A stretch of DNA of 64,000 bases from Bifidobacterium choladohabitans (GCF_016102005.1 NZ_JACFPL010000002.1:124001-188000); one strand, 5' to 3'. Shown: positions 22,352 through 41,024, numbered from the stretch's first letter. The notes: a model not told the origin generated them from the sequence alone. A program made the numbers and translations.

Positions 22352-24352
22352 ATGAGTCTTGATAATGGCATCGATGCCGTCGCCGATCCGTCCAGGGAGC
22401 GGCCGTTGGCCCTGATTCCCCGGCCGCTCCACTTGCAAAGGGATCGGGGCCGGTTGTTGTTGCCGGTGGCGGGCAGAATCGTCTGCGGTTCAGCGGTTGA
22501 CCAGGAGCTGGGTTCAGTCCTGAGTGGCCAGCTGACAGATACCATTCAGCAGGCCACGGGGATGGTCTGGGATCATTCGCGAGGGCAGGCGTGGAATGGC
22601 GCGATCAGTCTGGATCTGGACCAGAAACTTGGTCCCCAAGAGTATCTTCTGTCCATCGCTGATCGGGGGGAGCGCCGGCCGATTGTCGATATCCGCGGCG
22701 GCGACGGTCAGGGACTGCGATGGGGGGTACAGACCCTTCGCCAGATCATCATGCAATGCGGTCTGGTGCTTCCCGCCCTGCACATCCAGGACCGCCCCGC
22801 CTATCCAACACGCATCTACAGCCTGGATGTGACCCGCGGTCGGGTGCCCACCATGGACTGGCTGCGGCACTGGGCGGACATATTGGCCCTGTATAAGTTC
22901 AATCAGCTGCAACTCTACATTGAGCACACCATGGCTTTCCCGGGCATGAGCGAGGCTTGGAGGGGCACAAGCCCCCTGGAGCCCGGGCAGATCACCGACT
23001 TCGATGACTATTGCGCCCGCCTGGGCATCGAGTTGGTGCCTTCGATCTCCACCTTTGGCCACCATTACACCAGCCTTCGCACTCGCGGATTCAAGGATCT
23101 GGGCGAGTTTCCCGAGCAGGCGGACCGGCCATACTCTTTCATAGAGCGTCAGGAGCATCACACCATCAATGTCAACCACCCACAGGCTCTGGCATTCTCT
23201 ACAGGGCTGATTGACGCCTATGCGCCGCTTATGCGTACGCGAAACTTCAATATCGGCGGAGACGAGACCTTCGATCTGGGCAAGGGGCGTTCGCGGCAGG
23301 ACGGTTCCAGCAAGGATCCTGCTGACATGTATGCCGACTATCTGATCAGCCTGTGTGATCACCTGCATGCACAGGGCCGCCATCCCATGTTCTGGGGCGA
23401 TGTCGCTGTGTCCATGCCCAGGGTCCTGGACAGGCTGCCCAAGGACTGCACGTTGCTCAACTGGCTCTACGAGCCACAGGTGAAACCTGACAAGGTTGCT
23501 CTTGTAGCCTCTACAGGGGCCCGGCAGATAGTCTGCTCGGCCGTTCACGACTGGAATCATCTTCTGCCTGGAATCGACAATGCATGGAACAACATCAGCC
23601 GTCTGAGCCGATACGGGATCCAATACGGTGCCGTTGGGGCCATGGTCACGGACTGGGGCGATTACGGGCATATCAACGATCCGCGTATGAGTTTGCCGGG
23701 CATGGCCTACGCCGCCCAGTGCTTCTGGAATCCCGATGACGATGATCGGGACCGGGTGGACAGGGATATGGACCTGCTGGTCTATGGGGATGCGACGGGG
23801 GACTATCTGCCGGCGCTGATTCAGGCAGGCTCCAGTGTGGTCTTCGGCTGGGACGATATGGTGCGCTACTGGGAGCTGGACGACCGCCACGGCGGTCTTA
23901 ATCAGGATGTGGCATCTACAGTGCCAGGCGTGCCTGAACCGGATCCGTCTGCCGATGTCGACGAAGCTCGCCGTAACCTGCTTATGGCTTTGCGCAATCG
24001 TCTTGAGCAGGTGGATCAGCGTGACGCTCTGCTGGTCGACGCGGCTGCACGCATGGGCAGGGCGGCCGCCGAAAGCCAGGCTGATGCGCGCAGAACTTTG
24101 CAGGCTCAGTTGGTGGCTGTCCATGGCCAACGCCTCTTCAACGCATTGGGTCGTAGTCTGGCCGTTTGCCATGGCGTTCTGCCTGGAGCTCCGGATGCCG
24201 GCGCCGACCGGGGCCTGGCCGATGCCTTGGAGATCTGGTTCGAGTCCTACGCCACGGTTTGGCGTCAGGTCAGTCGCGAATCGGAGTTGGGGCGGATCGC
24301 CTCCGTGATTTGGGGCTTCGCCGACATTCTTCGGAAAGGGACGAACTCCTGA
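22352..24352 (+). CDS. GH20 beta-N-acetylhexosaminidase
   Basis: A 666-residue GH20 enzyme that removes terminal beta-linked GlcNAc or GalNAc. An N-terminal alpha/beta domain (20-150) precedes the TIM barrel: YSLDVTRGRVPTMDWLRHWA, SISTFGHH (231-238), and IGGDETF (301-307), with the catalytic Asp304-Glu305 pair of substrate-assisted catalysis. Conserved Trp and Asp residues follow in AMVTDWGDYGH. There is no signal peptide or anchor, so it acts in the cytoplasm on imported oligosaccharides. The last 200 residues are helical and family-specific. The neighbouring ROK repressor and sugar kinase suggest that it feeds amino-sugar metabolism, perhaps from the N-glycan genes further right. Confidence 0.85.
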   Translation: MSLDNGIDAVADPSRERPLALIPRPLHLQRDRGRLLLPVAGRIVCGSAVDQELGSVLSGQLTDTIQQATGMVWDHSRGQAWNGAISLDLDQKLGPQEYLLSIADRGERRPIVDIRGGDGQGLRWGVQTLRQIIMQCGLVLPALHIQDRPAYPTRIYSLDVTRGRVPTMDWLRHWADILALYKFNQLQLYIEHTMAFPGMSEAWRGTSPLEPGQITDFDDYCARLGIELVPSISTFGHHYTSLRTRGFKDLGEFPEQADRPYSFIERQEHHTINVNHPQALAFSTGLIDAYAPLMRTRNFNIGGDETFDLGKGRSRQDGSSKDPADMYADYLISLCDHLHAQGRHPMFWGDVAVSMPRVLDRLPKDCTLLNWLYEPQVKPDKVALVASTGARQIVCSAVHDWNHLLPGIDNAWNNISRLSRYGIQYGAVGAMVTDWGDYGHINDPRMSLPGMAYAAQCFWNPDDDDRDRVDRDMDLLVYGDATGDYLPALIQAGSSVVFGWDDMVRYWELDDRHGGLNQDVASTVPGVPEPDPSADVDEARRNLLMALRNRLEQVDQRDALLVDAAARMGRAAAESQADARRTLQAQLVAVHGQRLFNALGRSLAVCHGVLPGAPDAGADRGLADALEIWFESYATVWRQVSRESELGRIASVIWGFADILRKGTNS

Positions 24353-24734: not shown

Positions 24735-26078
24735 ATGGGTCTGTGGGACGTCGACAAGATCGAATACGTGGGTCGCCAGGGCGTGAAGGAGGGCCTGGGC
24801 TTCCGTTACTACGACAAGAATAAGGTGGTGGCCGGCAAGCCTATGAAGGACTGGCTGCGCTTCGCCGTGGCCTGGTGGCACACCTTCAACCAGGGTCTGG
24901 TGGATCCCTTTGGCGATCCCACTGCGCAGAGGCCCTACTACCGCTACACCGATCCCATGGATCAGGCGCTGGCCAAGGTGGACTACGCCTTTGAGCTCTT
25001 CACCAAGCTGGGGGTCGAGTTCTTCTGCTTCCACGACCGTGACCTGGCTCCCGAGGGCGACACCCTGCGCGAGACCGACGCCAATCTTGACAAGGTGATC
25101 GACCGCATCGAGGCCGCCATGAAGGACACCGGGGTCAAGCTGCTCTGGAACACCTCGTCGCTCTTCACCAACCCCCGTTTCGAGGCCGGCGCCGGCACCT
25201 CGCCCTTCGCTGACATCTACGCCTACTCGGCAGGCCAGCTCAAGCACAGCCTGGAGATCGGCAAGCGGCTGGGTGCCGAGAACTACGTGTTCTGGGGCGG
25301 CCGCGAGGGCTACGAATCCCTCTGGAACACCCGTATGAAGGAGGAGCAGGACCATATGGCCGCCCTCTTCCACATGTGCGTGGACTACGCCAAGGAGATC
25401 GGCTTCGACGCGCAGTTCCTGATCGAGCCCAAGCCCAAGGAGCCCACACTCCACCAGTACGATTACGACGCGGCCACCACCATCAACTTCCTGCGCACCT
25501 ACGACCTGCAGGACAACTTCAAGCTCAACATCGAGGGCAACCACGCCAACCTGGCCATGCATACCTATCAGCATGAGGTCCGCGTGGCCCGTGAGGCCGG
25601 ATTCCTGGGATCCCTGGATGCCAACCAGGGTGACAAGCTTATCGGCTGGGACATGGACGAGTTCCCCTCGGATCTCTACGATGCTACCGCAGTCATGTGG
25701 GAGGTGCTGGCCAACGGAAGCATCGGGCCCCGAGGAGGCCTGAACTTCGACGCCAAGCCTCGTCGCTCCTCCTTCCTGCCTGAGGACCTCTTCAGGACCC
25801 ACATCGTGGGCATGGACACCTATGCCGCCGGTCTGCTGGTCGCGGCCAAGATGCACGAGGACGGCTACATCGAGCAGCTGCAGCAGGATCGCTACTCCTC
25901 CTTCGAATCCGGCATCGGCTCGACGGTCAAGGATGGCACGGCCACGCTGGCCTCCCTGGAGGAGTACAGCCTCGACAAGCCGCAGGCCGAACTGATCGCC
26001 GCCGACAAGTCCGACCATCTTGAAGTGGTCAAGGCCACCATCAACAACTATATTGTCGAGGCTCTGGCCCAGGCCTGA
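24735..26078 (+). CDS. xylA: Xylose isomerase
   Basis: A 447-residue class II xylose isomerase that converts D-xylose to D-xylulose with two divalent metal ions. [13 protein letters not shown] contains catalytic His100 and Asp103. [15 protein letters not shown] and [18 protein letters not shown] supply metal ligands, and [19 protein letters not shown] the second metal site. An in-frame ATG at 24654 exists, but ATG 24735 follows AAGGAG and begins the conserved protein (MGLWDVDKI). Xylulokinase and the presumed XylR lie about 18 kb away at 44396-47367, so the xylose genes are split by the glycan loci. Confidence 0.95.
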
Positions 26079-26347: not shown

Positions 26348-26372
26348 TATAATGAAACTAAATCGCTTTAGT
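26348..26372 (+). promoter_or_regulatory. Promoter and palindromic operator of the first glycan operon
   Basis: A perfect -10 box TATAAT (26348-26353) is followed three bases later by ACTAAATCGCTTTAGT (26357-26372), half-sites ACTAAA/TTTAGT around a central CG as in LacI-family operators. An identical layout precedes the second glycan operon at 31980-32004. A repressor bound here would cover the transcription start. Confidence 0.75.
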
Positions 26373-26413: not shown

Positions 26414-27340
26414 ATGTCGAATGAGGCAGAGGGCAGGCCAGACAATAATAGTGAAAGTGACGAACCAAGACCTATTTTGGCCGGTTATTACCGCGCCTGG
26501 CACGATAACTGCGGAAAGCCAAAAAAGGATTCGATTTCGCTTGGCGATGTGCCCGCAGACCTGGATCTTGTGTCAATCATCACCAATGGAGAAGTCGATA
26601 ATGATTTTTGGCTTGCTTTGCCGTCCTACATTGAAAAACTCCATGCGCAAGGCACAAAGGTGGTCAGAACCCTGTTTTTGGATTGCCTCTATCGGGATAC
26701 CTACGAGGATTGCGGCAAAGTCCATACTTTCACCAGGCTTGGCGAAAGAAACGGCGGACCGGATCGTCGTGCCGACGAGATAATTGCCAACTATCTGGAG
26801 CCCTTTGACTACGACGGCCTGGTGATCGATGTCGATCATGAACCTGAGTCCGAGCAAATGGCTGCCGTAGCCGAGGTGTTTCACGCTTTGGCAAAGAAGT
26901 GGGGACCGGGTTCAGCGTCCTCACGCATCATGATTTTCGATCAGGATATTCTTCTGCCCCAGACCAGCCTGATTGCTCAGGTCTTTCATGATTGCTCCTA
27001 CTACTTTGCAGACACCTATGGCATGGATGTTCGCCGTATTCAGGGACTTTTCGAGCAGGTTCGCGACTTCGTCCCTGCTTCAAAATTCGTCACTGGTTTT
27101 TCATTCTATGAAGAAGGAGGCCCTCGATGGGGTGATGTCACGTATCCGATTGAAGGAAGCAGGGTCAAAGATCTCCTATCCTGGCATCCGTTTGATTCGA
27201 ACCGCACGGGGGGACTGTTCGCCTATGCAATAGATCGCGATGGGGTTGCCCAAGGTGACGATCGGTTGCGGCGAACCGATTTTAAAACCATGCACTATTT
27301 AAAAGAAGAATTGGAGAACAAAGGAGTTTCTCATGAATAA
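26414..27340 (+). CDS. GH18-like protein, cytoplasmic, with altered catalytic motif
   Basis: A 308-residue protein resembling the barrel of GH18 endo-beta-N-acetylglucosaminidases (EndoF/EndoS group, which cut the chitobiose core of N-glycans). Strand motifs are ILAGYYRAWHD, VSIITNGEVD and LHAQGTKVVRTLF. The GH18 signature position reads DGLVIDVDHE (134-143): compared with DGxDxDxE, the second Asp is Val, the third Asp (139) is kept and the catalytic Glu is Asp141, with Glu143 two residues on. Conserved C-terminal parts are FVTGFSFYEEGG and GLFAYAIDRDG. There is no signal peptide. It starts the operon; its stop overlaps the next start by 8 bases. The ATG at 26414 follows GGAGG. Confidence 0.65.
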   Translation: MSNEAEGRPDNNSESDEPRPILAGYYRAWHDNCGKPKKDSISLGDVPADLDLVSIITNGEVDNDFWLALPSYIEKLHAQGTKVVRTLFLDCLYRDTYEDCGKVHTFTRLGERNGGPDRRADEIIANYLEPFDYDGLVIDVDHEPESEQMAAVAEVFHALAKKWGPGSASSRIMIFDQDILLPQTSLIAQVFHDCSYYFADTYGMDVRRIQGLFEQVRDFVPASKFVTGFSFYEEGGPRWGDVTYPIEGSRVKDLLSWHPFDSNRTGGLFAYAIDRDGVAQGDDRLRRTDFKTMHYLKEELENKGVSHE

Positions 27341-28691
27341 ACTAGGGAAGATATCAGTTATGCTGCTGGCCGCGACTACCAGCGTCGGGATTTTATCGGC
27401 ATGCGGCTCTTCCGAATCGGATAAAAAAACGGTCAAGTTTGCCTACCAGGCCACCGGAGACACCAGTGCCATAAGCAAGTGGATGAAAGACGTCAAAGCT
27501 CAGTTTGAGTCTGAGAATAAAGGCGCTACTTTGAAGCTGGAGCCTATCAAGTCGAACGGGGATGACTACGGCAGCAAGCTGGCCTTGATGAGCAAATCCG
27601 AAAAAACCGCTCCAGATCTCATGATCCTTGACACGGAAATGATCCGTCCCTATGTCGCAGCCGGTTACCTGAAGCCCATTGATGACCAACTGAAAGGGTG
27701 GAAGGACTGGTCGCAGTATTTTGACAGTTCCAAGAACGCCGGCAAAGCCGATGATGGAAAAATCTATGCGGTGCCTCTGGGCACTGACACCAGGGGCATC
27801 TGGTATAACAAGGACATTCTCAAAAAGGCCGGCCTCAGTGACGACTGGCAGCCTAAATCCTGGGATGAGGTGATTGATGCAGCGACAAAGATCAAGAAAA
27901 CGCAGCCTGATGTAATACCGATGAACCTCTATGCCGGCCGTCCTCTGGGAGAGGTCTCCGTCATGCAGGGCTTCGATATGCTTCTTTACGGCACCAAGGG
28001 TGGCACACTGTACAACACCAAGACTCAGAAGTGGGTCACTGGTTCCAAGCAATTCAAAGACTCCCTACAGTTCATCAAGGATATTTACAGCAAGGGTTTG
28101 GCACCCACGCCCCAGCAGGCTCTGGATCCTCAGCTTGGTGACAAGGTCGGGCAACAGTGGATGCCTCAGTCGAAACTTGGTATGTCAATCGAGGGCAACT
28201 GGCTGGCTTCATCGTGGATGCCCGGCGGCGACAGCGAATGGACCGACTGGCAGAAGCATATAGGTTGGTGTGGATTCCCAACTCAGAACGGTCAGAAGCC
28301 TGGTCTGATTTCCATGTCTGGCGGTTGGGGCCTGGCGCTGTCCAGCCATACGCAGAATCCTGATCTTGCTTTCAAAGCACTCAAAGTTTTCCAAAATGAG
28401 AAGCATGCTGCCGCGTACGACACAATCTCCGGATCGATCGCGGTGCGCAAGGACGTAGAGCAAGACAAGAAGTACCTGGGATCCAATCCCACTATCAAGT
28501 TCTTCACGGATTTGGCCAAGTACAGTCAGTACAGGCCGGCGAACTCCCAGTACAAAGAGGTTTCCGACCAGGTCGCCATAGCCACGGAAAGTGTATTGAC
28601 CGGCCAGAAGTCAGTCAAGGATGCAGCGGCTGAATACGATTCTGCGATAGCCAAAACCGTAGGTGCCGATCATACAGAAGCCGCGAAGTAA
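27333..28691 (+). CDS. ABC sugar importer, solute-binding lipoprotein (first glycan operon)
   Basis: A 452-residue extracellular binding protein of the CUT1 family, which would deliver oligosaccharide to the two permeases that follow. A signal peptide ends in the lipobox LSAC (Cys24). Family features are APDLMILDTEMIRPYVAAG and YAVPLGTDTRGIWYNKDILKKAG in the first lobe and SIEGNWLASSW in the second. AAAGGAG precedes the start, which lies inside the end of the GH18-like gene (8-base overlap). The ligand is probably an N-glycan piece released by a GH18-type enzyme; this is inferred from neighbours. Confidence 0.88.
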   Translation: MNKLGKISVMLLAATTSVGILSACGSSESDKKTVKFAYQATGDTSAISKWMKDVKAQFESENKGATLKLEPIKSNGDDYGSKLALMSKSEKTAPDLMILDTEMIRPYVAAGYLKPIDDQLKGWKDWSQYFDSSKNAGKADDGKIYAVPLGTDTRGIWYNKDILKKAGLSDDWQPKSWDEVIDAATKIKKTQPDVIPMNLYAGRPLGEVSVMQGFDMLLYGTKGGTLYNTKTQKWVTGSKQFKDSLQFIKDIYSKGLAPTPQQALDPQLGDKVGQQWMPQSKLGMSIEGNWLASSWMPGGDSEWTDWQKHIGWCGFPTQNGQKPGLISMSGGWGLALSSHTQNPDLAFKALKVFQNEKHAAAYDTISGSIAVRKDVEQDKKYLGSNPTIKFFTDLAKYSQYRPANSQYKEVSDQVAIATESVLTGQKSVKDAAAEYDSAIAKTVGADHTEAAK

Positions 28692-28735
28692 ACGAATTCC
28701 ATTCGCGGGTTTTCTTTCGTGACTGAGAGAAGAAA

Positions 28736-29626
28736 ATGAATAGCAGTACAAGAAAGAAATTGATAAACGCTGAGCACTACACCCCGATTCTGCCAGCAGC
28801 GGCGATGATGTTGATTTTCCTGCTTGGCCCAATCATATGGTCCCTGTATGCCTCGCTGACCGACTATTCAATGGTTGGTTCAACGGCTGTCAACCCACAC
28901 TTTGTTGGTCTGAAGAACTATGTGGCGCTCTTTACGGATCCTGTTTTCCCCAAGTCCCTCTGGCTGACCATTCTTCTGATTCTGGCCTCGGCACTAATTG
29001 GGCAGAACATATTGGGCATGGTATTGGCTCTACTCAGTCAAAAAGCGCCCAGAAGACTGACGAAGGTCGTTGACTCAATAGTTGTTCTGGCTTGGGTCAT
29101 TCCGGATATCGTCGGGTGCTACTGCGCCTACGCGCTCTTTGCTGGCGGAGGCACTCTTGACGCTTTGGGCAAGGTGTTGGGAGCCGATTGGTCGGCTCTT
29201 CTCTACTACCATCCAATGACCATCGTCATCATTGTGAATGTCTGGCGCGGCACCGCCTTTTCAATGCTCATCTATCAAGCTGCTTTGAACGACATCTCCA
29301 AGGATGTTATCGAAGCTGCTGAGATAGACGGCGCGAACGCCTGGCAGTCTTTCTTCAGAATCAAGCTGCCTATCATGCGGCACTCGATTCTTACCAATCT
29401 GATGTTGATCACCCTGCAGACACTCTCTGTCTTCAGCATCATCATTGTGCTGACGGGTGGGGGGCCTGGCACGAATTCGAGCACCCTTCCCGTTCTCGCC
29501 TACCTGGAGGCTTTCAACTTCTCGAAGTTGGGATATGGAACCGCCATCTCGGTGATATTGGTCGTCGTGGGTGCCCTCTTCTCGGTGCTCTATATCAAGC
29601 TGCTAAGGACGAATGATGAAGACTGA
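28736..29626 (+). CDS. ABC sugar importer permease, MalF-like (first glycan operon)
   Basis: A 296-residue permease with six helices. The cytoplasmic EAA loop reads EAAEIDGANAWQSFFRIKLP, where it contacts the ATPase. It begins 44 bases after the binding-protein gene and overlaps the next permease gene by 14 bases. No ATPase gene is in the operon; bifidobacterial CUT1 systems usually share one MsmK/MalK-type ATPase encoded elsewhere. Confidence 0.9.
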   Translation: MNSSTRKKLINAEHYTPILPAAAMMLIFLLGPIIWSLYASLTDYSMVGSTAVNPHFVGLKNYVALFTDPVFPKSLWLTILLILASALIGQNILGMVLALLSQKAPRRLTKVVDSIVVLAWVIPDIVGCYCAYALFAGGGTLDALGKVLGADWSALLYYHPMTIVIIVNVWRGTAFSMLIYQAALNDISKDVIEAAEIDGANAWQSFFRIKLPIMRHSILTNLMLITLQTLSVFSIIIVLTGGGPGTNSSTLPVLAYLEAFNFSKLGYGTAISVILVVVGALFSVLYIKLLRTNDED

Positions 29627-30476
29627 AGCCACTCTTGATCCACGGATGAACGCACCACACAGGTATGACTGGATGAAGCTGGTCGCTGCGGTACTGACAG
29701 CTCTGATAGGGTTTCTTTTCGCTGCGCCCATGCTCTGGCTGCTGGTGGCCTCCTTCAACACGCATGCAACCTTGTCTTCGTTCAACTTGGGTTTTTCCTT
29801 CCAGAACTTCGTCAAGGTATTCAACATGCAGACCTTCGGGTTGCCTATCGTCAACTCGCTGATCATCAGTATTGGCACATCGGTGCTGGTGGTGACTTTT
29901 TCGGTCCTGGCAGCCTACCCTCTCTCCAGATTCCGTTCAAAGACCACCAACCGGACCGTCAACGCCATCCTCTTCGCCAGCTGTCTGCCGATTACAGCCA
30001 TGATGGTCCCTGTTTACGGGATATTCGTCCAACTTCATCTGATTGATTCACTGACCGGGACCGTTCTTTTCATGACTGCCTGCGGATTGCCGCAGGGCAT
30101 CTTCATGATGAAGAATTTCATGGATTCAGTGCCGGTTACCTTGGAGGAAGCCGCTTGGGTGGATGGAGCCACGAGGATGCAGGCCTTGTTCCATGTAGTC
30201 GTGCCTCTGATGGTTCCATCGCTTCTGGTCATCTTTATTTCGGAATTCGCCGGGAACTGGGGGAACTTCTTCGTTCCCTTCATGCTTCTGATGTCTCCGG
30301 ATAAGGAGCCGGCAGCCGTCAGCATATACACCTTCTTCGGGCAGCATGGCACGGTTGCCTACGGCCAGCTGGCAGCTTTCTCGCTGCTGTATTCGATACC
30401 TATTCTGATCATTTATGAAGTAACGAATAGATATATCGGCAACCAAACCCTGCTTGCGGGTGCGGTCAAGGAGTAA
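29613..30476 (+). CDS. ABC sugar importer permease, MalG-like (first glycan operon)
   Basis: A 287-residue partner permease with six helices and the EAA loop EEAAWVDGATRMQALFHVVV followed by PLM. The typical long first periplasmic loop and the C-terminal helix ending near GAVKE are present. Its first codons overlap the preceding permease gene, so the two are translationally coupled. It is followed after 88 bases by the secreted GH18-like gene in the same direction. Confidence 0.9.
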   Translation: MMKTEATLDPRMNAPHRYDWMKLVAAVLTALIGFLFAAPMLWLLVASFNTHATLSSFNLGFSFQNFVKVFNMQTFGLPIVNSLIISIGTSVLVVTFSVLAAYPLSRFRSKTTNRTVNAILFASCLPITAMMVPVYGIFVQLHLIDSLTGTVLFMTACGLPQGIFMMKNFMDSVPVTLEEAAWVDGATRMQALFHVVVPLMVPSLLVIFISEFAGNWGNFFVPFMLLMSPDKEPAAVSIYTFFGQHGTVAYGQLAAFSLLYSIPILIIYEVTNRYIGNQTLLAGAVKE

Positions 30477-30564
30477 AGACGAAGCGTCGATGCTACGGGG
30501 AGGAGGGAATCGACATTTTATCTGCTTCAGTAAAAGCGAAGGCAAGCACGAAAAGAGATCAACC

Positions 30565-31542
30565 ATGAAAATCCGGAGATTGTTAACAGCATCAATGGCC
30601 GTTCTGGCCTTAGCCGGAACGTCCGCGATAGGGGCTGCCACTGCCTGGGCCGAACCTGCTGTTCAGGGGAAGACCCATGAGATGACCGTCGCCTATTTCA
30701 GGGCCTGGAGGGATACGCATTCGGATCCGACTGTCAATTTCAACTCGATGTCAGATCTGCCCAAGCAGGTGGACATTGCTATCGCCTTTCCCAACCCGGA
30801 GACCACTCAGACCTTCTGGGACACTCTTCCTGGGCAGATTGAGTCTCTGCACAAGCAGGGGACAAAAGTGATCAGGAGTCTGGATATCAGCCTCTTCTAC
30901 AAGGATGATTTCAACGACCCCCATGACCATCAGTCTCTTTCGCCCATGGAAAGCAATGCAGAGGGGTACGCCAAACGTGCCAGCGAGCTCAAAAAGTCCT
31001 ATCTTTACTTCCCTGGACTTGATGGCTTTGTCGTCAACGCCGAGGCGAGTATGACCTCTACCGACGTTGAACGAGCCACTGGGGTTCTCAGGGCCATGTC
31101 CCGCTACTACGGCCCCAAGTCGCCTGAGCCGAGTTCCATCTTTGCTTATAACACCAACAAGCCTGGGACCAACAGCCTCTATAGGGGAGTGTCCGACGTG
31201 GTCTCTTACGTATTCGCCGATGCCTATGGACGTTCGGTCGGAGCCCTCCAGCGGGACTGGGAGACCTACAAGGGTACGATCAAGAGCAGGCAGTATATTC
31301 CAGGTTTCTCGTTCTATGAAGAGCGTGGCGGATGGTGGTATGACACCGAAGAGCCAATGTCGACCAGCAGGGCCATGCAGTACGCTCTTTGGGAGCCTGA
31401 TAACGGGGCCGATGGCGCACAAAAAGGCGGCATTTTTGAGTATGCCGTCGACAGGGATGGAGTACGTCGTGGCGATGACAAGCTTCAGCCTACAACCTTC
31501 GAATGGACCAAGGCCCTTTCGGCGGCTATGAATAAGAAGTAA
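30565..31542 (+). CDS. GH18-like protein, secreted paralogue with altered catalytic motif
   Basis: 325 residues with a clear signal peptide (MKIRRLLTASMAVLALAGTS, cleavage after AWA at about 29). It is a paralogue of the protein at 26414: both share YxRAWxD, LHxQGTKV-R-L, GFSFYEE and a FEYAVDRDGV-RGDD end. The signature position reads DGFVVNAEAS (153-162). Against DGxDxDxE the second Asp is Val, the third Asp is Asn158 and the Glu (160) is kept, so the two paralogues have lost different acidic residues. It could be a weak or unusual endoglycosidase or a glycan-binding protein held in the envelope region. No anchor motif is seen, so release from the cell is likely. The family is inferred from motifs only. 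Confidence 0.65.
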   Translation: MKIRRLLTASMAVLALAGTSAIGAATAWAEPAVQGKTHEMTVAYFRAWRDTHSDPTVNFNSMSDLPKQVDIAIAFPNPETTQTFWDTLPGQIESLHKQGTKVIRSLDISLFYKDDFNDPHDHQSLSPMESNAEGYAKRASELKKSYLYFPGLDGFVVNAEASMTSTDVERATGVLRAMSRYYGPKSPEPSSIFAYNTNKPGTNSLYRGVSDVVSYVFADAYGRSVGALQRDWETYKGTIKSRQYIPGFSFYEERGGWWYDTEEPMSTSRAMQYALWEPDNGADGAQKGGIFEYAVDRDGVRRGDDKLQPTTFEWTKALSAAMNKK

Positions 31543-31979: not shown

Positions 31980-32004
31980 TACAATTGTACTAAACCGCTT
32001 TAGT
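31980..32004 (+). promoter_or_regulatory. Promoter and palindromic operator of the second glycan operon
   Basis: A -10 box TACAAT (31980-31985) is followed three bases later by ACTAAACCGCTTTAGT (31989-32004). The palindrome differs from that at 26357 only in the central base pair next to CG, and the spacing from the -10 box is identical. Both operons are therefore probably controlled by one repressor. Confidence 0.75.
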
Positions 32005-32040: not shown

Positions 32041-35000
32041 ATGCAGCTGAAGATAGAACGCGTGCTTGACAAGTGCGATCGTGTCATGCGTCAACGCGTG
32101 CTACCGAAGATTGAGCGGCCCATGGGCAAGGTCCAAGTCCGCTCTTTCGTCATTTCCGGGGAACCGATACCGTCATCGGAGTTCTTCGAGAAGGTACAGA
32201 GCAAGAGTGTGGACTTCCGGCCTCTCTCCTTGGGGGATACCTGGGGCACGACCTGGGGGACCACCTGGATGGAGGTTACCGGTCGCGTCGATGCCGACTG
32301 GGCGACCAGGGCTCCTGTCGAGCTGGTGGTGGATCTAGGTTGGCATCCGGATGCGCCGGGCGGCCATTTTGAGGCCCAGGCCTATAGGAGCGATGGTTCG
32401 ATCATCAAGGCCGTCAATCCCCGCAACCGCTGGATTCCGCTTGACGGCACCGACCTGGACGGGAATCCAATCCATGAAGAAGCTTCGGTCATCAACGCTG
32501 ATGGAACCTTTACCATCTATCTGGAAGCGGCCTGCAATCCGCTCCTGCTTGGAACCCCCGCATTCGTGGAGACGGAGCTGGGCGAAGGGACCACGGGTCG
32601 CGCCGATGAACCCAATGTCCTCAAGCAGATGGATGTCTGCCATTTTGACCATGAGGTATGGAACTACTACATGGATCTTGAGGTCACAGCCCAGTTGATT
32701 CGCGAATGCAACGAGAGTCAACCTCGGTACTGGCGTCTGGGCAAGGCCCTCCAGCGCTCGCTGAATATTTACGATGAGCGTGACCTGGCTACACTCGCGC
32801 CGGCTCGACAGGCCCTGGCTGGCGTGCTGGCAGTGCCTGCGACTCCTAGCGCACTGGATCATGCGGCAGTGGGGCATTCCCATATCGACTCCGCCTGGCT
32901 CTGGCCCAAGCGGGAGACCAGACGCAAGGTGGCACGGACGGTATCGAACATGCTCGCGCTGATGGAGCGCGACCCTCAATTCATCTATGCCATGAGCTCG
33001 CCCCAGCAGTATGCATGGCTGGAAGAGGATCATCCCGATCTCTTCGCCCGCGTCAAGCAACGCATCCAAGAAGGCAGGTTTATCCCCGTCGGAGGGATGT
33101 GGGTGGAGTCCGACGGCATGCTGCCTTCAGGGGAGTCGTTGACCCGTCAGTTCACCTATGGCAAGCGGTACTACCGTGAGCATCTGGGGGTAGACACGAC
33201 CGTCGTCTGGGAGCCGGATAGCTTCGGCTATACGGGCCAGTTCCCGCAGATTGCCCGCCGTGCAGGAATGACTTCATTCCTTTCGCAGAAGATCTCCTGG
33301 AATGACACGACCAAATTCCCGCACCATACCTTTGATTGGCAGGGCATCGACGGCACGGCCATCTTCACACATTTCCCTCCCATGGATACCTATGCCTCCA
33401 GCATGACGGCCCGGGAACTCAATCACTCCGAAGAGAACTACCAGGACAAGGACATCTCGACCAGGGCCCTGGTCCTGTTCGGCTATGGCGATGGCGGCGG
33501 CGGCACTACTAGGGAGATGCTAGGGCGTTATGACCGTCTGCATGACGTTGAGGGGTCGGCCAAGGTCCGGTATCAGGCTCCTGCAGACTTCTTCCGCCAG
33601 TCCGAGGAGGAAATCCGCAAGGAGGCCGGTTCCGAAATGCCCGTCTGGAAGGGCGAGCTCTACCTGGAGCTGCACCGCAAGACCCTGACCTCCCAGCAGG
33701 ATATGAAGCGGGGATGCCGGCAGGAGGAGGCCATGCTGCGCACGGTCGAATATCTGTGCGCTTACGCCGGCTTGGTCGATGACTCCTACACCTACCCCCG
33801 TCAGGAGCTGGACGAAATCTGGCGCACGCTTCTGCTCAACCAGTTCCACGACATTCTTCCAGGTTCCGCCATCTCCTGGGTGCATAGGCTGGCCAGGGAA
33901 GACTACCGCAGGGACATCGCCCGTCTGGAGCAGATCGGCGACGAGGCAGCTTGCGTCATAGCCTCCGCTCAGCCACAGGCTCCCATGGTGTCCGATGCCA
34001 AGTTGGTACCCATGGAGGGCAAGGGGCAGACAGCTTGGGAGGCTGTTGGGCCAGTCCATGCCCAGGAGGGGCCTGAGGGCATCCGGCCTGTCCAGGTCAG
34101 TCAAGAAGGCGATGGATTCGTCATGGACAATGGGCTTATCCGTGCCGTCGTCGCTTCGGATGGTAAAGTTCATTCTATTCTTGACAGGACCTCCGGCAGG
34201 GACCTGGTCCCGCAGGGTTCCTCGGTTGGCGGATACGAGCTCTTCAAGGATGAGCCCTACATGTGGGATGCCTGGGACCTGGAGCGCGATGCCCTGCTGA
34301 CTGCTTCTCCGGTCGATGACCCAGTCACCGTGGAGTCCCTGGATTCCGGTGTTCGGGTATCGCGTCGGCATGGGGAGACCACCATCGTGACCACAATCGG
34401 GTTGACCCCGGGCAGCAGGCAGTTGGACTTCACTGCTGATGTGGACTGGCATCAGGATGAGCAGCTGCTCAAGGTGGACATTCCCGTCGCTGTTCAGGCC
34501 AGGTACGCGCAATTCGAGTGCCAGTATGGCTTCATCGATAGGCCCATCCAGAAGAACAACGCCGCTGAAGAGGCTCAGTTCGAGAGCTGCACGCACCGAT
34601 TCGTCAGGATCAGCGACGACGATCTTGCCGTCGGCGTGGTCAACGCTTCGACATACGGCGGTGATACCACACCGATCCACTACGACGAGAAGGCCGGCAA
34701 AGAGGCGGGTACCCTGGTCAGACTGACCCTTCTGTCCGCTCCGGTCTTTCCTGATCCGCATACCGACAGGGGCAAGCACAGTTTTGCCTGGTCCATTGTC
34801 CCTGGGGACACCCAGGCCGACATCCTGCAAGCAGCCTACGCCCTCAACGCTCCGGTCTTCCACCATGGACTGCCTGCAGTTGAGCCCCTGGCTGCTGTAG
34901 AGGATATTCAGGGCACTACCGTCATCGACTGGATCAAGACGGCTGATGACGACAGCGACGATGTGATCGTCAGGGTCTACAACCCGGATTCTTCGCCATC

Positions 35001-35190
35001 CAAAGCCAGGTTGCGCACAGGATCCGTTCTGCAGGGTGCGACTGTGAAAGAGACCAATTCCTTGGAGGACGGACCTGTGCCCGAGGGTGTGCGGCCAGGC
35101 CTGTGCTCCGAACAGGGTGCACAAGCTGATGGGGCCTTGCTGGATCTTGTTCCCTTCCAGTTCACCACATTGAGACTCTCCAGGCGCTGA
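32041..35190 (+). CDS. GH38 alpha-mannosidase
   Basis: A 1049-residue zinc-dependent retaining alpha-mannosidase of family GH38. An N-terminal domain of about 260 residues precedes the catalytic barrel with GHSHIDSAWLWP (278-289), whose His and Asp bind zinc, and WEPDSFGYTGQFP (390-402), with nucleophile Asp393. The three-helix domain and large C-terminal beta-sandwich follow. There is no signal peptide, so it trims alpha-mannose inside the cell. GAGGAGG lies 10 bases upstream of the start. It opens an operon with an ABC importer and a GH5 enzyme, which points to high-mannose or core N-glycan fragments as substrate. Confidence 0.92.
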   Translation: MQLKIERVLDKCDRVMRQRVLPKIERPMGKVQVRSFVISGEPIPSSEFFEKVQSKSVDFRPLSLGDTWGTTWGTTWMEVTGRVDADWATRAPVELVVDLGWHPDAPGGHFEAQAYRSDGSIIKAVNPRNRWIPLDGTDLDGNPIHEEASVINADGTFTIYLEAACNPLLLGTPAFVETELGEGTTGRADEPNVLKQMDVCHFDHEVWNYYMDLEVTAQLIRECNESQPRYWRLGKALQRSLNIYDERDLATLAPARQALAGVLAVPATPSALDHAAVGHSHIDSAWLWPKRETRRKVARTVSNMLALMERDPQFIYAMSSPQQYAWLEEDHPDLFARVKQRIQEGRFIPVGGMWVESDGMLPSGESLTRQFTYGKRYYREHLGVDTTVVWEPDSFGYTGQFPQIARRAGMTSFLSQKISWNDTTKFPHHTFDWQGIDGTAIFTHFPPMDTYASSMTARELNHSEENYQDKDISTRALVLFGYGDGGGGTTREMLGRYDRLHDVEGSAKVRYQAPADFFRQSEEEIRKEAGSEMPVWKGELYLELHRKTLTSQQDMKRGCRQEEAMLRTVEYLCAYAGLVDDSYTYPRQELDEIWRTLLLNQFHDILPGSAISWVHRLAREDYRRDIARLEQIGDEAACVIASAQPQAPMVSDAKLVPMEGKGQTAWEAVGPVHAQEGPEGIRPVQVSQEGDGFVMDNGLIRAVVASDGKVHSILDRTSGRDLVPQGSSVGGYELFKDEPYMWDAWDLERDALLTASPVDDPVTVESLDSGVRVSRRHGETTIVTTIGLTPGSRQLDFTADVDWHQDEQLLKVDIPVAVQARYAQFECQYGFIDRPIQKNNAAEEAQFESCTHRFVRISDDDLAVGVVNASTYGGDTTPIHYDEKAGKEAGTLVRLTLLSAPVFPDPHTDRGKHSFAWSIVPGDTQADILQAAYALNAPVFHHGLPAVEPLAAVEDIQGTTVIDWIKTADDDSDDVIVRVYNPDSSPSKARLRTGSVLQGATVKETNSLEDGPVPEGVRPGLCSEQGAQADGALLDLVPFQFTTLRLSRR

Positions 35191-35291: not shown

Positions 35292-36593
35292 ATGAGAGCA
35301 CTGAAGAAGGTAGCAGTATTGATCTGCACGACTGCCATGGCGGGTTCGTTGGCGGCGTGCGGAGGAAGCAACAGCAGTTCAGGCGGGTCGAAAGACGGCA
35401 AGCCGTCAGGCGAGATCTCCTTCCAGACCTGGAACCTGAAGAACGACAAGTACACTCCGTATTTCAAAAACCTGATTTCGACCTATGAGAAGTCGCATCC
35501 CGGCACCACCATCAAGTGGATCGATCAGCCCTCGGACAACTATGAACAGAAGCTGTCCGCCGACGCAGCAGCCAACTCCCTGCCCGACATCATCGATGCC
35601 GGCCCCTCCCTGATGTATGGCCTGGCCAAGGCCGGGGCCCTGATGAACATCAGCAAGGAAGCTCCCAAGGCTGAAAACAACTATTACAAGAATGCCTGGG
35701 ATGCAGTCACCTTCAAGGGCAAGGACATCGAGGAGGGAGCCTACGGCTTCCCCTGGTACGTCAACGATGGACCGACCTATTACAACACTGAGCTCATGCA
35801 GAAGTGTGGACTGGACCCCAACAAGCTGCCTGTGACCTGGGACGACTACTTCTCTCAGGCGGACACCATGGTCAATAGCGGCTGTGGGGCCTACATGTCC
35901 ACCATGATGGGAAGCTCCGTCGATGACTATGCATCGGCCGGCATCCCCATCATGAACAAGGATCACACCAAGTACGTCTTCAATTCCCCTGATGCCGTCA
36001 AGCATCTGCAGCGCTTCGTCGACCTGTATAACAAGAAGGGAATCCCGCCGGAGGCTCTGAGCGCACAGTGGTCTCAGCAGGGCGAATTCTTCCAGAAGGG
36101 CTCCATCGTGGCCATGGGCGGCAGCGCCTACTCGGCGGCGGATTTCAAGCAGAACTCTCCAGACCTGTACAAGCATCTGGCTGTGGGCACCAAGATCAGC
36201 GATCAGGGCAAGTCCGCCAGCCTGGCCTTTGAGATGCTGGCCGTCAACGCCCAGACCAAGAACAAGACGCTCGCTCTGGACTTCGTCCAGTATGTGACCA
36301 ATGCCAAGAACCAGCTGGAATTCGCCAAGAAGTCCAACACCTTCCCCTCCAGCAAGGGCGGTCTTGATGATCCCTACTACGCCAACATCGACACCAGCGA
36401 TGTTCAGGGCAAGGCCCTGAAGATCACTCTGAACTCCGTAAAGAATGGATACTCAAGCCGTCCTGCCGAGTTCACCGATGCCAATGGCAACCGTTACCTG
36501 CAACAGCAGGCCGCTCTGGCCCTGCAGGGCAAGCAGACAGCCAAGGAGTCCTTGGACAAGGCCGTCAAGTACGCCAACGAGAAGCTGCAGTAA
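35292..36593 (+). CDS. ABC sugar importer, solute-binding lipoprotein (second glycan operon)
   Basis: A 433-residue CUT1-family binding protein. The signal peptide ends with lipobox LAAC (Cys23), followed by a Ser/Gly linker and ISFQTWNLKNDKYTPYFKNL of the first lobe. Further motifs are NSLPDIIDAGPSLMYGLAKAG, AYGFPWYVNDGPTYYNTELM and GSIVAMGGSAYSAADF. It is only distantly similar to the binding protein at 27333, so the two importers probably take different glycan fragments. Its stop is two bases before the next start. Confidence 0.88.
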   Translation: MRALKKVAVLICTTAMAGSLAACGGSNSSSGGSKDGKPSGEISFQTWNLKNDKYTPYFKNLISTYEKSHPGTTIKWIDQPSDNYEQKLSADAAANSLPDIIDAGPSLMYGLAKAGALMNISKEAPKAENNYYKNAWDAVTFKGKDIEEGAYGFPWYVNDGPTYYNTELMQKCGLDPNKLPVTWDDYFSQADTMVNSGCGAYMSTMMGSSVDDYASAGIPIMNKDHTKYVFNSPDAVKHLQRFVDLYNKKGIPPEALSAQWSQQGEFFQKGSIVAMGGSAYSAADFKQNSPDLYKHLAVGTKISDQGKSASLAFEMLAVNAQTKNKTLALDFVQYVTNAKNQLEFAKKSNTFPSSKGGLDDPYYANIDTSDVQGKALKITLNSVKNGYSSRPAEFTDANGNRYLQQQAALALQGKQTAKESLDKAVKYANEKLQ

Positions 36594-36595
36594 CT

Positions 36596-37567
36596 ATGCG
36601 CCGCACCGACTCTTCCGCCATCCGGCCGAAGGCTTCCGCCCTCGGCCGGCACGGTGGGTCCCAGGCCGGGGTCCAAGGCGGCAAGGGGACCCACTGGACC
36701 ACGACCCTAGCCCCCTACCTCTTTGTCTTCCCGGCCTTTGCCATCGTCTTCGTCTTCGTCATCGTAGCTGCGCTGAATACCTGCCGGCTGGCCTTTACTG
36801 ATTCCACGTTGTTGCGCCCGGGCAAGTTCGTGGGCATCGAGAACTTCGTAAAGATTGTGCATGACGACTATTTCTGGACCGCGTTGCTCAATTCCTCACT
36901 GTACGTGGTCTGTGTGGTCCCCTTTATGGTCATCCTTCCCCTGATACTGGCCAACCTGGTCAAAGGGAACTCCAGAATCATGGGGTTCTTCAGAACCTCC
37001 TTCTACACTCCTGTGGTCATGTCGGCAGTGGTGGTGGGAATGATATGGACCAACCTGTTGGATCCCAAGGGGCTGGTCAATTCAGTTCTGGAGTCCTTGC
37101 ACATCATCCACAGCCCGATTCCATTTCTCAGCGATCGCTGGCTGATACTGTTCACTTCCATGTTCGTCACCATCTGGCTGGGTCTGGGATACTACATGGT
37201 CATCTACCTGACCGCGCTGGCCAACATCGACGTCTCCCTCTACGAGGCCGCCTCACTGGATGGGGCAGGACCGGTAAGGCAATTCCTGTATGTCACCATC
37301 CCAGGAGTGAGATCCACCATCGTGCTGATCATGATGCTGTCCACCATTGCGGCCTTCCGTGTGTTCAACGAGATCTACGTGCTCACCAACGGCACGGCTG
37401 GTCCCGGCGGCGAGGACATCACCATGTCCATGCTCATCCAGAGGGAGGGCACGGGCATCCAGGCCAGGACGGGCTATGCCAGTGCTCTGTCACTGATTGT
37501 CCTGGTTGTGGTCGGAGCCATGCTGATTCTGCAGCAGATTATCCAGAAGCGGGGGGAGGACTCATGA
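36596..37567 (+). CDS. ABC sugar importer permease, MalF-like (second glycan operon)
   Basis: A 323-residue permease with a longer N-terminal cytoplasmic part (about 40 residues) and six helices. The EAA loop is YEAASLDGAGPVRQFLYVTI. It begins two bases after the binding-protein gene and overlaps the next permease gene by ATGA. Confidence 0.9.
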   Translation: MRRTDSSAIRPKASALGRHGGSQAGVQGGKGTHWTTTLAPYLFVFPAFAIVFVFVIVAALNTCRLAFTDSTLLRPGKFVGIENFVKIVHDDYFWTALLNSSLYVVCVVPFMVILPLILANLVKGNSRIMGFFRTSFYTPVVMSAVVVGMIWTNLLDPKGLVNSVLESLHIIHSPIPFLSDRWLILFTSMFVTIWLGLGYYMVIYLTALANIDVSLYEAASLDGAGPVRQFLYVTIPGVRSTIVLIMMLSTIAAFRVFNEIYVLTNGTAGPGGEDITMSMLIQREGTGIQARTGYASALSLIVLVVVGAMLILQQIIQKRGEDS

Positions 37568-38403
37568 AAAGCGGTCACTCCAAAGTCACTGTTGGCAAGG
37601 TTATTCAGTATCTTGTGCTCATACTGGTCTTCATCCTGCTTGTGGGGCCCTTCGTCTGGGAGCTCTCGCTCTCCTTCAAGGGCAAGGGCGACAATGTCTA
37701 TGCGGTTCCGCCCTATATCATCCCGAAGACGCCCACCTGGAACAATTACATATCCGTCTTCAGGCAGGTTCCGGTCTTCCGGTACATGCTGAACACGGTG
37801 ATCGTCGCCATACTTTCCATCGGAGGCAACGTCATCTTCTCAACCATGGCCGGATATGCGCTGGGCCGGCTCAAGTGGCGCGGACGCAACCTGCTCTTCA
37901 CGATTTTCATGGGCACCATGGTCATCCCCGTCGAAGGTGTGGTCATCTCCCAGTTTCTGATTGTTAGAAGCGTCGGTCTGCAGAACACCCTCTTGGCTGT
38001 CGCCCTGCCTGGCATGGTGGGTGCCGTCAACATTCTGCTCATGACCAATGCTTTCAGGGGCATCCCGGACGAGCTTGAGGAGGCGGCCGAGGTGGACGGC
38101 GCCAATCTTTGGCAACGGTTCTACCGGATCTGCGTGCCTCAGGTCAAAGGCACCATGACCGTCGTCGGCATCTTCGCCTTCGTGGGAGCCTGGAATGATT
38201 TCCTCTGGCCCCTGATTGTCATCTCCGACGAGTCAAACTACACGCTCACTCTGGGCATGAACCGACTCAAGGGTATGTTCATTTCGGATCCCAGATTGAT
38301 AGCAGCGGGGGCCCTGGTCTCCCTGATACCGATCCTGGTCTTCTTCGCCTGCTTCCAACGCTACTTCTTCCGTGGTCTGGAACAGGGTGGCATCAAGGAA
38401 TAG
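37564..38403 (+). CDS. ABC sugar importer permease, MalG-like (second glycan operon)
   Basis: A 279-residue permease with six helices and EAA loop EEAAEVDGANLWQRFYRICV. Its ATG at 37564 overlaps the TGA of the previous gene (ATGA), a sign of coupled translation; longer in-frame starts upstream run antiparallel to nothing useful and lie inside the preceding gene. No ATPase is encoded in the operon. Confidence 0.9.
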   Translation: MKSGHSKVTVGKVIQYLVLILVFILLVGPFVWELSLSFKGKGDNVYAVPPYIIPKTPTWNNYISVFRQVPVFRYMLNTVIVAILSIGGNVIFSTMAGYALGRLKWRGRNLLFTIFMGTMVIPVEGVVISQFLIVRSVGLQNTLLAVALPGMVGAVNILLMTNAFRGIPDELEEAAEVDGANLWQRFYRICVPQVKGTMTVVGIFAFVGAWNDFLWPLIVISDESNYTLTLGMNRLKGMFISDPRLIAAGALVSLIPILVFFACFQRYFFRGLEQGGIKE

Positions 38404-38410
38404 CGTTATC

Positions 38411-39703
38411 ATGAAATTTGGAGTCAATTACACCCCCTCCCATAACTGGTTCTATTTTTGGCTGCATCCGGATTGGGATGCCGTCGCCAAAGACCTCGAC
38501 GACATTGCCTCCCTCGGGCTGGATCATATCCGCATCTTCCCGCTGTGGACGATTCTTCAGCCCAACAGGACCTGGATCAATGATGCAGCCCTGGACGACC
38601 TGAGGCATATGGCCGCCCTGGCGGATGAGCGGGGATTGGATGTCTATTCGGATGTGATCCAGGGGCACATGTCCAGTTTTGACTTTGTGCCCTCCTGGCT
38701 GGTCTCATGGCATGAAACCAATATGTTTAGGGATTCGGACGCAGTCCAGGCGCAGGCCCGGTTGGTCGCTGCGGTCTATGAGGCCCTGGCGGACCTGCAG
38801 CATTTCCGCGGTCTGACCATTGGAAACGAATGCAACCAGTTCACTGACCATGTCCATCCGCGTCGAATGCCTTGCACCTCCGAGGAGGCTGAAGACTGGC
38901 TGCAGGAGCTGCTGACTCCGTTGAGGGAGAGGGCATCCCAGGAGGGCCGTGTGCTCCTCCATTCCGAAAACGATGCGACTTGGTATCAGGATGGCCACGC
39001 CTTTCTTCCGCGATATGCATCCAACATCGGAGACATGACCTGCATTCATTCCTGGGTTTTCAACGGAGCCGCGCAGGAGTGCGGCCCCTTGGCTGAGGAG
39101 AGCACGCGTCATGCCGAGTACCTGGTGGAGCTGTCGAAGGCCTTTGCCAGTCAGCCCCACCGGCAGGTTTGGTTGCAGGAAATCGGTGCACCGCTCAATG
39201 TAATGAGTGCAGGGCAGGCCGCTGACTTTTGTAGGTCTTCGGTGGAGCATGCTCTCGATTGCAGCGACATGTTCGGCGTCACCTGGTGGTGCTCGCATGA
39301 CGTCGACCAGCAATTCGGCGATTTCCCTCCCTTTGAGCATCAGCTGGGTCTGTTCGATCAAGACAAGCACCTCAAGCCCATAGGCCAGGCCTTCGCCCAG
39401 GCGGTGAAGGACTACTCAGGCAAGCAGGATTCTCGGCCCAGGCCCACGGCTCTGGTCGTTGATGTGGACGAGCACGATGATCCCCTACTCAGATCTGCCT
39501 GCGCGCCTGGCGGGTCCATCTTCAATAAGTGGATGGAACTCAGCCGTCAGGGTGCAAGGCCGACCCTGGTCACCTCCCTGCATGCGGCGGATCGCAGCTG
39601 GCTGCAGGACAGGGGCATAAGCGAGTGCATCGCCGTCAAATCTGTTGGCGGAAGCTCCTACAGCGCCGTATCCGACCCATCCCTCCTGCGGAAAAAGTCC
39701 TGA
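38411..39703 (+). CDS. GH5-type glycosidase, probable beta-mannosidase of the GH5_18 kind
   Basis: A 430-residue clan GH-A barrel enzyme. The acid/base motif is LTIGNECNQF (Asn139-Glu140) and the nucleophile motif WLQEIGAP (Glu257), with HSW and WWCSHDVDQQFGDFP near the active site. Bifidobacterial GH5_18 enzymes cleave the Man-beta-1,4-GlcNAc core of N-glycans, and the GH38 neighbour fits that role: after alpha-mannose removal this enzyme would split the remaining disaccharide. There is no signal peptide, hence cytoplasmic. The ATG at 38411 lies 7 bases after the permease stop, with AAGGAA upstream. The last 70 residues form a tail I do not recognise. The subfamily assignment is inferred from context and recall. 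Confidence 0.7.
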   Translation: MKFGVNYTPSHNWFYFWLHPDWDAVAKDLDDIASLGLDHIRIFPLWTILQPNRTWINDAALDDLRHMAALADERGLDVYSDVIQGHMSSFDFVPSWLVSWHETNMFRDSDAVQAQARLVAAVYEALADLQHFRGLTIGNECNQFTDHVHPRRMPCTSEEAEDWLQELLTPLRERASQEGRVLLHSENDATWYQDGHAFLPRYASNIGDMTCIHSWVFNGAAQECGPLAEESTRHAEYLVELSKAFASQPHRQVWLQEIGAPLNVMSAGQAADFCRSSVEHALDCSDMFGVTWWCSHDVDQQFGDFPPFEHQLGLFDQDKHLKPIGQAFAQAVKDYSGKQDSRPRPTALVVDVDEHDDPLLRSACAPGGSIFNKWMELSRQGARPTLVTSLHAADRSWLQDRGISECIAVKSVGGSSYSAVSDPSLLRKKS

Positions 39704-39788: not shown

Positions 39789-39932
39789 AGGTTGTCGACC
39801 ATGGTTTTGTGCTGATGAGGGTCTAAGTTAGGGTTAGAGGCCGATATGCGTGTACGCCTAAAGTGTGTGGCAGGCAGTCTGGTTTGCTAAGTCGGCCGAG
39901 CCGGATCACGGGTGTCGACGAGGATGGTTGAT

Positions 39933-41024
39933 ATGAGGTGGCGCATGGGCGGCGAGTCCGATGGCGGAGAAACAGAAGCCAGGGTCAACCTCAAAGACAT
40001 AGCCAACGAACTGGGGATATCCCAGACCGCGGTTTCCTTCGCCATCAATGATAAGCCCGGAGTCTCCATCCAGACCAAGCGCAGGGTTCGCGAAGCGGCT
40101 GCCAGGATGGGTTGGAAGCCAGTATACGCAGCCCAGGCCTTGGGCAGTTCCAGGACCATGACAGTCGGTTTCGCTCCGGCCAGGTCCATGGATGCCTTCC
40201 AAACCGAAGGATTCATGCTGCATTTCATGGCCGGCATCCACGCCTCCCTGAGCCGGTCGGGCTACGGCCTGCTCTTTCGCCCGTGCGCCACGTTGGACGA
40301 GGAGCTGGATACTTATCGGGACTGGGCCAGACGCAAGCGGGTCGATGGGGTGGTGCTGGTGGATCTTCTTTCCAATGATCCCAGGCCGCGGCTCCTGCAT
40401 AATCTAGGTCTGCCCGCAGTCTTGGCCGGGGGGCCGGACTCGGACAACTACCTGCCCTCGCTGTCCATCGACGATTCCAGAACCATGACGACGATCATGA
40501 ACCATCTGAGCTCGCGTGGGCATGCCCGGATTGCTTATTTGTCGGGGGATGAAAACCTTGACTACAGCCGAGCCCGTGTCTCCTCCTTCAAGGAGTTCGT
40601 CCGTCGGAAGAATCTGGGGGAGCCGAAGGTGGAGTTCACGGACTTCATCCCGGATAAGGCAGCCTCACTCACTCTTCGTCTCTCGTCTGGAGACAATCCG
40701 TATACGGCTTTTATCTATGAGAACGAGATCATGGCTGCGGCCAGTCTGCGCGTAATGCTGGAAAACAGGATGACGCCCAATAATATTGCGGCCTCTGATT
40801 CGGCTTATATGAGTCTGCCGGCCATGGTCAGCTTCGAGGACAGCTTCATCTGTCAGAGTACTTATCCCTCCATCACGTCGGTCCATCGTGATGCCGGGCT
40901 CTACGGCACCAAGGTGGCCAACCTGCTTCTGAAGATATTCCGAGGGGAGCAGGTAGGGGGCAACCGCCGCATCCTGACCCCCAAGCTGGTCATCCGCGAG
41001 AGCACGGCGCGTCCGGTTCGATGA
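39933..41024 (+). CDS. LacI-family transcriptional regulator
   Basis: About 363 residues. The helix-turn-helix reads VNLKDIANELGISQTAVSFA followed by INDKPGVS, then the hinge AAQALGSSRT and a periplasmic-binding-like sugar domain (GFAPARSMDA, RVDGVVLVDLLSNDPR, GGPDSDNYLPSLSIDD). Possible starts are GTG 39912 and ATGs at 39924, 39933 and 39945; 39933 has AGGATGG five bases upstream, but the choice is uncertain. Operator-like palindromes lie before this gene and before the beta-galactosidase gene, its most likely target. Whether it also acts on the ACTAAA-type operators of the glycan operons cannot be told. Confidence 0.85.
   Translation: MRWRMGGESDGGETEARVNLKDIANELGISQTAVSFAINDKPGVSIQTKRRVREAAARMGWKPVYAAQALGSSRTMTVGFAPARSMDAFQTEGFMLHFMAGIHASLSRSGYGLLFRPCATLDEELDTYRDWARRKRVDGVVLVDLLSNDPRPRLLHNLGLPAVLAGGPDSDNYLPSLSIDDSRTMTTIMNHLSSRGHARIAYLSGDENLDYSRARVSSFKEFVRRKNLGEPKVEFTDFIPDKAASLTLRLSSGDNPYTAFIYENEIMAAASLRVMLENRMTPNNIAASDSAYMSLPAMVSFEDSFICQSTYPSITSVHRDAGLYGTKVANLLLKIFRGEQVGGNRRILTPKLVIRESTARPVR

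Follow-up and report, generated by a model that had tools for sequence, protein, structure and literature searches.

The closest described relatives of the two proteins treated here are EndoCoM of Cordyceps militaris and the ORF1188-type enzymes, which are core-fucose-specific GH18 endo-beta-N-acetylglucosaminidases (PDB 6kpl, PMC5762919). How such enzymes hold their substrate is seen in EndoE with its Man5 product, where O1 is bonded by Q243 and E186, the acetamide nitrogen by D184 and E186, and the acetamide oxygen by Y245, and where the mannose (Man) in subsite -2 is contacted by E276 and Y313 (PMC8894350). Changes at D233, Q303, and D279 of EndoS lower hydrolysis and favor transfer from oxazoline (PMC5825150). 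Endo-A, of family GH85, works with N171 and E173 in the motif DGWFINQETEG, as read from printed primers, and N171A kills its activity (PMC2646837). A single key catalytic residue sets GH18 and GH85 endoglycosidases apart, Asp in the former and Asn in the latter, which raises the question of how a working enzyme passes from one to the other. Here we describe P1 and P2, two EndoS-type genes with altered active sites in a 64,000-nucleotide stretch of DNA from the honeybee-gut bacterium Bifidobacterium choladohabitans (the window). With a probability of about one-half, we consider P1 and P2 to be a duplicated and redesigned EndoS-type pair within an acquired N-glycan module, in which P2 would be an active GH85-like enzyme and P1 its remodeled cytosolic partner.

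P1 (26414..27340; this and all features below are on the + strand) encodes a cytoplasmic EndoS-type triosephosphate isomerase (TIM) barrel of 308 amino acids, an Asp-x-Asp variant, and P2 (30565..31542) encodes a secreted barrel of 325 amino acids including the signal peptide, an Asn-x-Glu variant. Both match PF23916, the EndoS endo-beta-N-acetylglucosaminidase barrel (2.3e-50 and 3.5e-65, or 172 and 220 bits versus a cut-off of 27). The AlphaFold (AF2) models are confident, with mean predicted local distance difference test (pLDDT) scores of 90.8 (P1) and 91.9 (P2), and Foldseek places them on EndoS2, EndoS, and EndoCoM at template-modeling (TM) scores of 0.84 to 0.87. EndoCoM (6kpl) is the best match of each, with a TM score of 0.86 for P1 and of 0.87 for P2 (root mean square deviation, 1.8; 42% identity). 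A first-pass annotation had called the pair GH18-like paralogues and had proposed such a structural comparison, which now identifies both as EndoS-fold paralogues of GH18-type endo-beta-N-acetylglucosaminidases. The start of P1 is ATG 26414, with GGAGG, a good ribosome-binding site, directly 5' of it; the protein lacks a signal peptide, and the position of this site rules out a wrong start that would mask one. P2 has its conserved start at ATG 30565 (MKIRRLL...), the upstream frame being closed in two relatives; the earlier start at 30454 reflects only a longer frame. Its N terminus is a typical signal peptide that ends between AWA and E.

Coordinated substitutions around a retained sugar pocket

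In P1, the segment V137-I-D139-V-D141 (26822..26836; DGLVIDVD) has lost the middle Asp of the canonical motif and has Asp in place of the catalytic Glu. The end of strand 5 reads D176-Q-D178 (26939..26947) where the canonical sequence is D-T-N, and loop 6 reads D200-T-Y202 (27011..27019) where it is Q-x-Y, placing D200 at the position of the EndoE Gln that touches the scissile oxygen. The corresponding segment of P2, V156-V-N158-A-E160 (31030..31044; DGFVVNAE), retains Glu, and Asn replaces the acetamide-orienting Asp. Strand 5 of P2 has N196-T-N198 (31150..31158) for D-T-N, at EndoS D279, and loop 6 has D219-A-Y221 (31219..31227) for Q-x-Y, at EndoS Q303 and EndoE Q243. Both motifs and the residue numbers D141, N158, and E160, as first reported, are confirmed by the two reading frames; further switched positions had escaped notice, namely P1 D178 and P2 N196 in strand 5 and P1 D200 and P2 D219 in loop 6.

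We gathered homologues from named genomes, the family, the phylum, and the Lactobacillaceae and read their active-site columns. Every one of the 51 other EndoS-type homologues reads DGxDxDxE, and five positions are invariant among them: the middle Asp, the acetamide Asp, the Glu, the strand-5 Asp, and the loop-6 Gln. At these positions P1-type proteins have V/I, D, D, D (plus D for N two residues on), and D (7/7), and P2-type proteins have V/A, N, E, N, and D (6/6). The switch pattern is therefore fixed in 13/13 P1/P2-type proteins, with V-x-D-x-D in P1 and V-x-N-x-E in P2 instead of the canonical motif, and with loop-6 Tyr retained and Gln changed to Asp in all 13. As judged from these alignments, such coordination is far beyond chance. 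Glu143 of P1 (DVDHE) is ruled out as a substitute acid, as it is unconserved (DVDRN in homologue locus L025 and DVDHP in L026).

On a numbering that we verified with residues cited in the EndoE and EndoS2 papers, EndoE D182, D184, E186, Q243, and Y245 correspond to V137, D139, D141, D200, and Y202 of P1 and to V156, N158, E160, D219, and Y221 of P2. The EndoE pocket residues Y67, R69, W71, Y245, E276, E277, and Y313 are identical in both proteins, which preserves the pocket for N-acetylglucosamine (GlcNAc) at subsite -1 and Man at subsite -2. The exceptions are Phe104 on the pocket floor, which is Ile56 in P1, and Asn281, a contact of O6 that EndoCoM lacks too. Because the Man-beta-GlcNAc pocket is kept and the loop-6 Gln has become Asp, we regard the two sites as rewired, not simply stripped, with a new carboxylate at the expected position of the scissile oxygen. 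The first-pass annotation had held that other acids in the active site would speak against its view, and this is in part what we find, at the loop-6 position of both proteins.

A retained pocket beside altered acids is also what would be seen if P1 and P2 were catalytically dead N-glycan lectins, with P2 capturing glycans outside for the transporter and P1 binding or buffering them inside. GH18 chi-lectins exist (for example, PMC3662789), the substrate-pocket residues listed above are all retained, and P1 has Asp instead of the catalytic Glu. However, P2 keeps that Glu in 6/6 proteins and has the GH85 dyad as well, and the specific polar replacements and gained Asps are fixed across two genera, whereas decay would leave a scattered pattern. 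We consider this explanation unlikely.

Likeness of P2 to GH85 and its possible chemistry

The Asn-x-Glu dyad of GH85 is present in P2 (6/6 relatives) and absent from P1. P2 and the GH85 enzymes (Endo-A and those of Bifidobacterium, with the motif DG[WY]F[IV]NQE) have DG-x-x-x-N-x-E in common, and in both the middle Asp is replaced by a non-acid, Val/Ala in P2-type proteins and Phe in GH85. A profile comparison gives a weak link over 80 columns, with the two DG-x-x-x-N stretches in register. Nevertheless, P2 is not a member of GH85, as the Pfam scan of P1 and P2 found no match to PF03644. Since GH85 endoglycosidases operate with Asn-x-Glu as their catalytic dyad, inactivity does not follow from the change of Asp to Asn. 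The earlier proposal that both proteins lost catalytic acids and may be inactive is thus only partly right: it is not supported for P2, and it may hold for P1. If we are right, P2 would work like a GH85 enzyme inside a GH18 fold, and it looks like a natural intermediate between the two families. In open-access papers, our literature search found no relevant report of a GH18 enzyme that naturally carries this Asn. P2 is small and easily expressed, and P1 and about 50 canonical relatives are at hand as controls.

Outside the cell, P2 would cleave N-glycans at their GlcNAc-GlcNAc bond; the mechanism would be the usual substrate-assisted one but with a GH85-type dyad, in which Asn158 would hold the acetamide and Glu160 would serve as acid/base; Asp219, new at the scissile oxygen, may tune or assist. 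Glycans would be imported via the binding protein SBP1 and the permeases of the module and, to judge from enzyme family, trimmed by GH38 and GH5_18. In the cytosol, P1 would bind the same Man-beta-GlcNAc core, and its Asp139/Asp141 together with the added Asp200 may bring about weak or altered cleavage of imported glycans ending in GlcNAc2. Loss of catalysis in P1 is nearly as likely.

P2 is possibly transglycosylating. Among the alternatives, there is a small but real chance that it is a natural glycosynthase-like transglycosidase, which would form the oxazoline and pass the glycan to a sugar acceptor and not to water, with P1 cleaving the imported transfer product. P2 is altered at the equivalents of EndoS D233, D279, and Q303 (D279 was located by counting along the alignment with EndoSz), positions whose mutation cut hydrolysis and kept or raised transfer; transfer is a known activity of GH85 enzymes that have Asn-Glu, and the nectar-fed gut is presumably rich in acceptors. 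Yet the EndoS changes were to Q, S, and L, versus N, N, and D in P2, and the EndoS mutants used pre-made oxazoline. We give somewhat less credence to a combined scheme, in which an ancestral change of Gln to Asp freed the strand-4 acids, P2 converged on the GH85 Asn-Glu as a natural transglycosidase, and the acid/base of P1 moved to the loop-6 Asp, with P1 undoing or re-cutting the imported product. P2 would also be a lead toward natural biocatalysts for glycan transfer and toward the way in which bee-gut bacteria use N-glycans.

The N-glycan module and its operator

An operator palindrome, CTAAATCGCTTTAG (26358..26371), lies 42 nucleotides 5' of the P1 start codon and matches CTAAANCGNTTTAG perfectly; a second, CTAAACCGCTTTAG (31990..32003), lies 37 nucleotides 5' of GH38. 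Perfect matches to CTAAANCGNTTTAG number only two in the window, with 0.001 expected per 64 kb. The site also stands 5' of P1 in all bifidobacterial relatives retrieved (L022-L025). B. bohemicum and B. bombi have it in their N-glycan loci, and the enzyme that they encode at the corresponding place is canonical (DGLDIDME). As the operator is common to P1, to GH38, and to these canonical loci, we conclude that P1 and P2 belong to the N-glycan regulon, in which they take the position of the canonical enzyme. The probable reader of this LacI-type operator is the LacI-family regulator at 39912..41024 (PF13377/PF00356), to which a regulator in homologue loci L025, L052, and L053 is 59-60% identical. 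In several bifidobacterial species, this operator is a mark of the N-glycan regulon, and it could serve in the search for further members. A promoter and terminator scan did no better than shuffles.

P1 and P2 bracket an ATP-binding cassette (ABC) transporter in a single unit, in the order and operon arrangement first described (binding protein from 27333, permeases from 28736 and 29613). SBP1, the sugar-binding protein of the transporter (27333..28691; PF01547, 3.9e-32), is 54% identical to its counterpart in L025, and permeases 1 (28736..29626) and 2 (29613..30476) are assigned by position and by their L025 homologues (63% and 67%). A second genus has the same block of P1, SBP1, two permeases, and P2 (43-67% identity), with the same active-site changes. 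Its G+C content is 0.50-0.55 versus 0.56-0.63 for its neighbors, which suggests that the five-gene module was acquired.

The link to glycans made by the first-pass annotation is substantiated, as PDB matches of GH38 and GH5_18 and the common operator mark an N-glycan locus. The GH38 alpha-mannosidase (32041..35190; PF01074, 8e-95) scores 1273 bits to 7ufs and is similar to the alpha-mannosidases 7ufr/7ufu; we take the structures 7ufr-7ufu to be B. longum N-glycan enzymes. A second ABC transporter follows at 35292..38403 (SBP2, 35292-36593; permeases, 36596-37567 and 37564-38403), and then an exo-beta-mannosidase of family GH5_18 and of BlMan5B/BlGH5_18 type (38411..39703; 588 bits to 6mp2 and 537 bits to 7lqx). 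Upstream lies a GH20 beta-hexosaminidase-like gene (22352..24352; PF00728, 1.1e-12) with weak PDB matches to GH20 lacto-N-biosidase. Family searches with PF00704, PF03644 (GH85), and PF23916 found no other endoglycosidase in the genome. Between the GH20 gene and the module, directly 5' of P1, is a full xylose isomerase gene (24654-26078; NCBIfam equivalog), a possible sign of plant N-glycans that bear xylose (pollen) or of mannose isomerization. Elsewhere in the window (11045-12814), a 590-amino-acid frame has two stretches of DUF285 (PF03382), a family described from Mycoplasma.

Descent, constraint, and comparison with known systems

The source of the window is a Bifidobacterium in the asteroides group; among the relatives retrieved, the nearest named ones are Bifidobacterium sp. 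7101, B. mellis, and B. asteroides. P1/P2-type proteins occur in two genera of Bifidobacteriaceae, and P1-type proteins additionally in Schleiferilactobacillus. A metagenome genome of the other bifidobacterial genus has both, at 42-43% (P1-type) and 60% (P2-type) identity, and P1-type is found in one of three genomes of that genus. The P2-type proteins have the motifs DGFVVNAE and DGVAINAE. Schleiferilactobacillus harbinensis, of another phylum, is the only one with P1-type among 399 Lactobacillaceae genomes (35% identity). Its gene (L026:2461-3375) stands alone, without a P2 partner, also misses the first Asp (TGLVIDVD), and adjoins divergent ABC permease-like genes and an AraC-type regulator. 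Plasmid spread of P1 is ruled out, the only match being a distant one in Enterococcus (27% identity). In the tree, in which S. harbinensis forms a long branch, the P1-type and P2-type proteins group as sisters (support, 99/96), and their neighbors are secreted enzymes of Bacteroidota and Pseudomonas. Because of this sister relation, the changes common to both (loss of the middle Asp and Gln to Asp) are likely to have a single origin that is older than the divergence of the Asn-x-Glu and Asp-x-Asp copies.

The ratio of nonsynonymous to synonymous substitution rates (dN/dS) of P2 is 0.02-0.10, which indicates very strong purifying selection, is close to that of its transporter (0.01-0.03), and rules out a decaying pseudogene. 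Several observations weigh against the reading of P2 as an active GH85-like enzyme with P1 as remodeled partner. Constraint on P1 is weaker (dN/dS, 0.17-0.20), and in Bifidobacterium sp. 7101 (L022, about 5988) a one-base deletion splits the P1 gene and leaves P2 intact, which could be a real loss or an error of the draft sequence. The Asn of Endo-A operates in surroundings different from those of the P2 Asn. Of 27 genomes of the same genus, 14 have GH38 but only 5 have the pair, and none has GH85, so the N-glycan pathway would not strictly need an endoglycosidase, and other members of the genus appear to manage without. In EndoS, D233Q (the acetamide Asp) and then the loop-6 Gln change reduce hydrolysis (PMC5825150), and by this analogy P2 could be a poor hydrolase.

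Given its lower dN/dS, we consider P2 firmly functional; the higher dN/dS of P1 and the deletion in sp. 7101 leave some probability to decay of P1, which we take to be functional in most relatives and more dispensable. The same two observations bear on an improbable explanation, in which P1 alone has changed chemistry and its five Asps near subsite -1 (139, 141, 176, 178, and 200) would create a new site, acidic or metal-binding, for another reaction on the Man-GlcNAc core. These Asps are invariant in 7/7 P1-type proteins, including the one from another phylum, and three of them replace the canonical Glu, Asn, and Gln; however, weaker selection and the frameshift in one relative speak against this explanation.

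The redesigned EndoS-type pair that we favor is most similar to EndoCoM, a single-domain barrel of about 300 amino acids that is the best structural and sequence match of both proteins (TM score, 0.86-0.87; 32-42% identity) and has the same pocket residues. In contrast to P1 and P2, which are altered at all three sites, EndoCoM retains DGLDIDVE, DTN, and QSYG. EndoS, EndoS2, and EndoE have the PF23916 barrel and the contact residues for Man(-2) and GlcNAc(-1) that P1 and P2 also have, but they are multidomain proteins with canonical catalytic residues, and P2 is altered at the equivalents of D233, D279, and Q303, which were engineered in EndoS. The EndoBI-type enzymes, such as those of B. bohemicum and B. 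bombi, occupy the same N-glycan locus under the same operator, whereas they have canonical DGLDIDME, a C-terminal extension, and only about 30% identity to P2.

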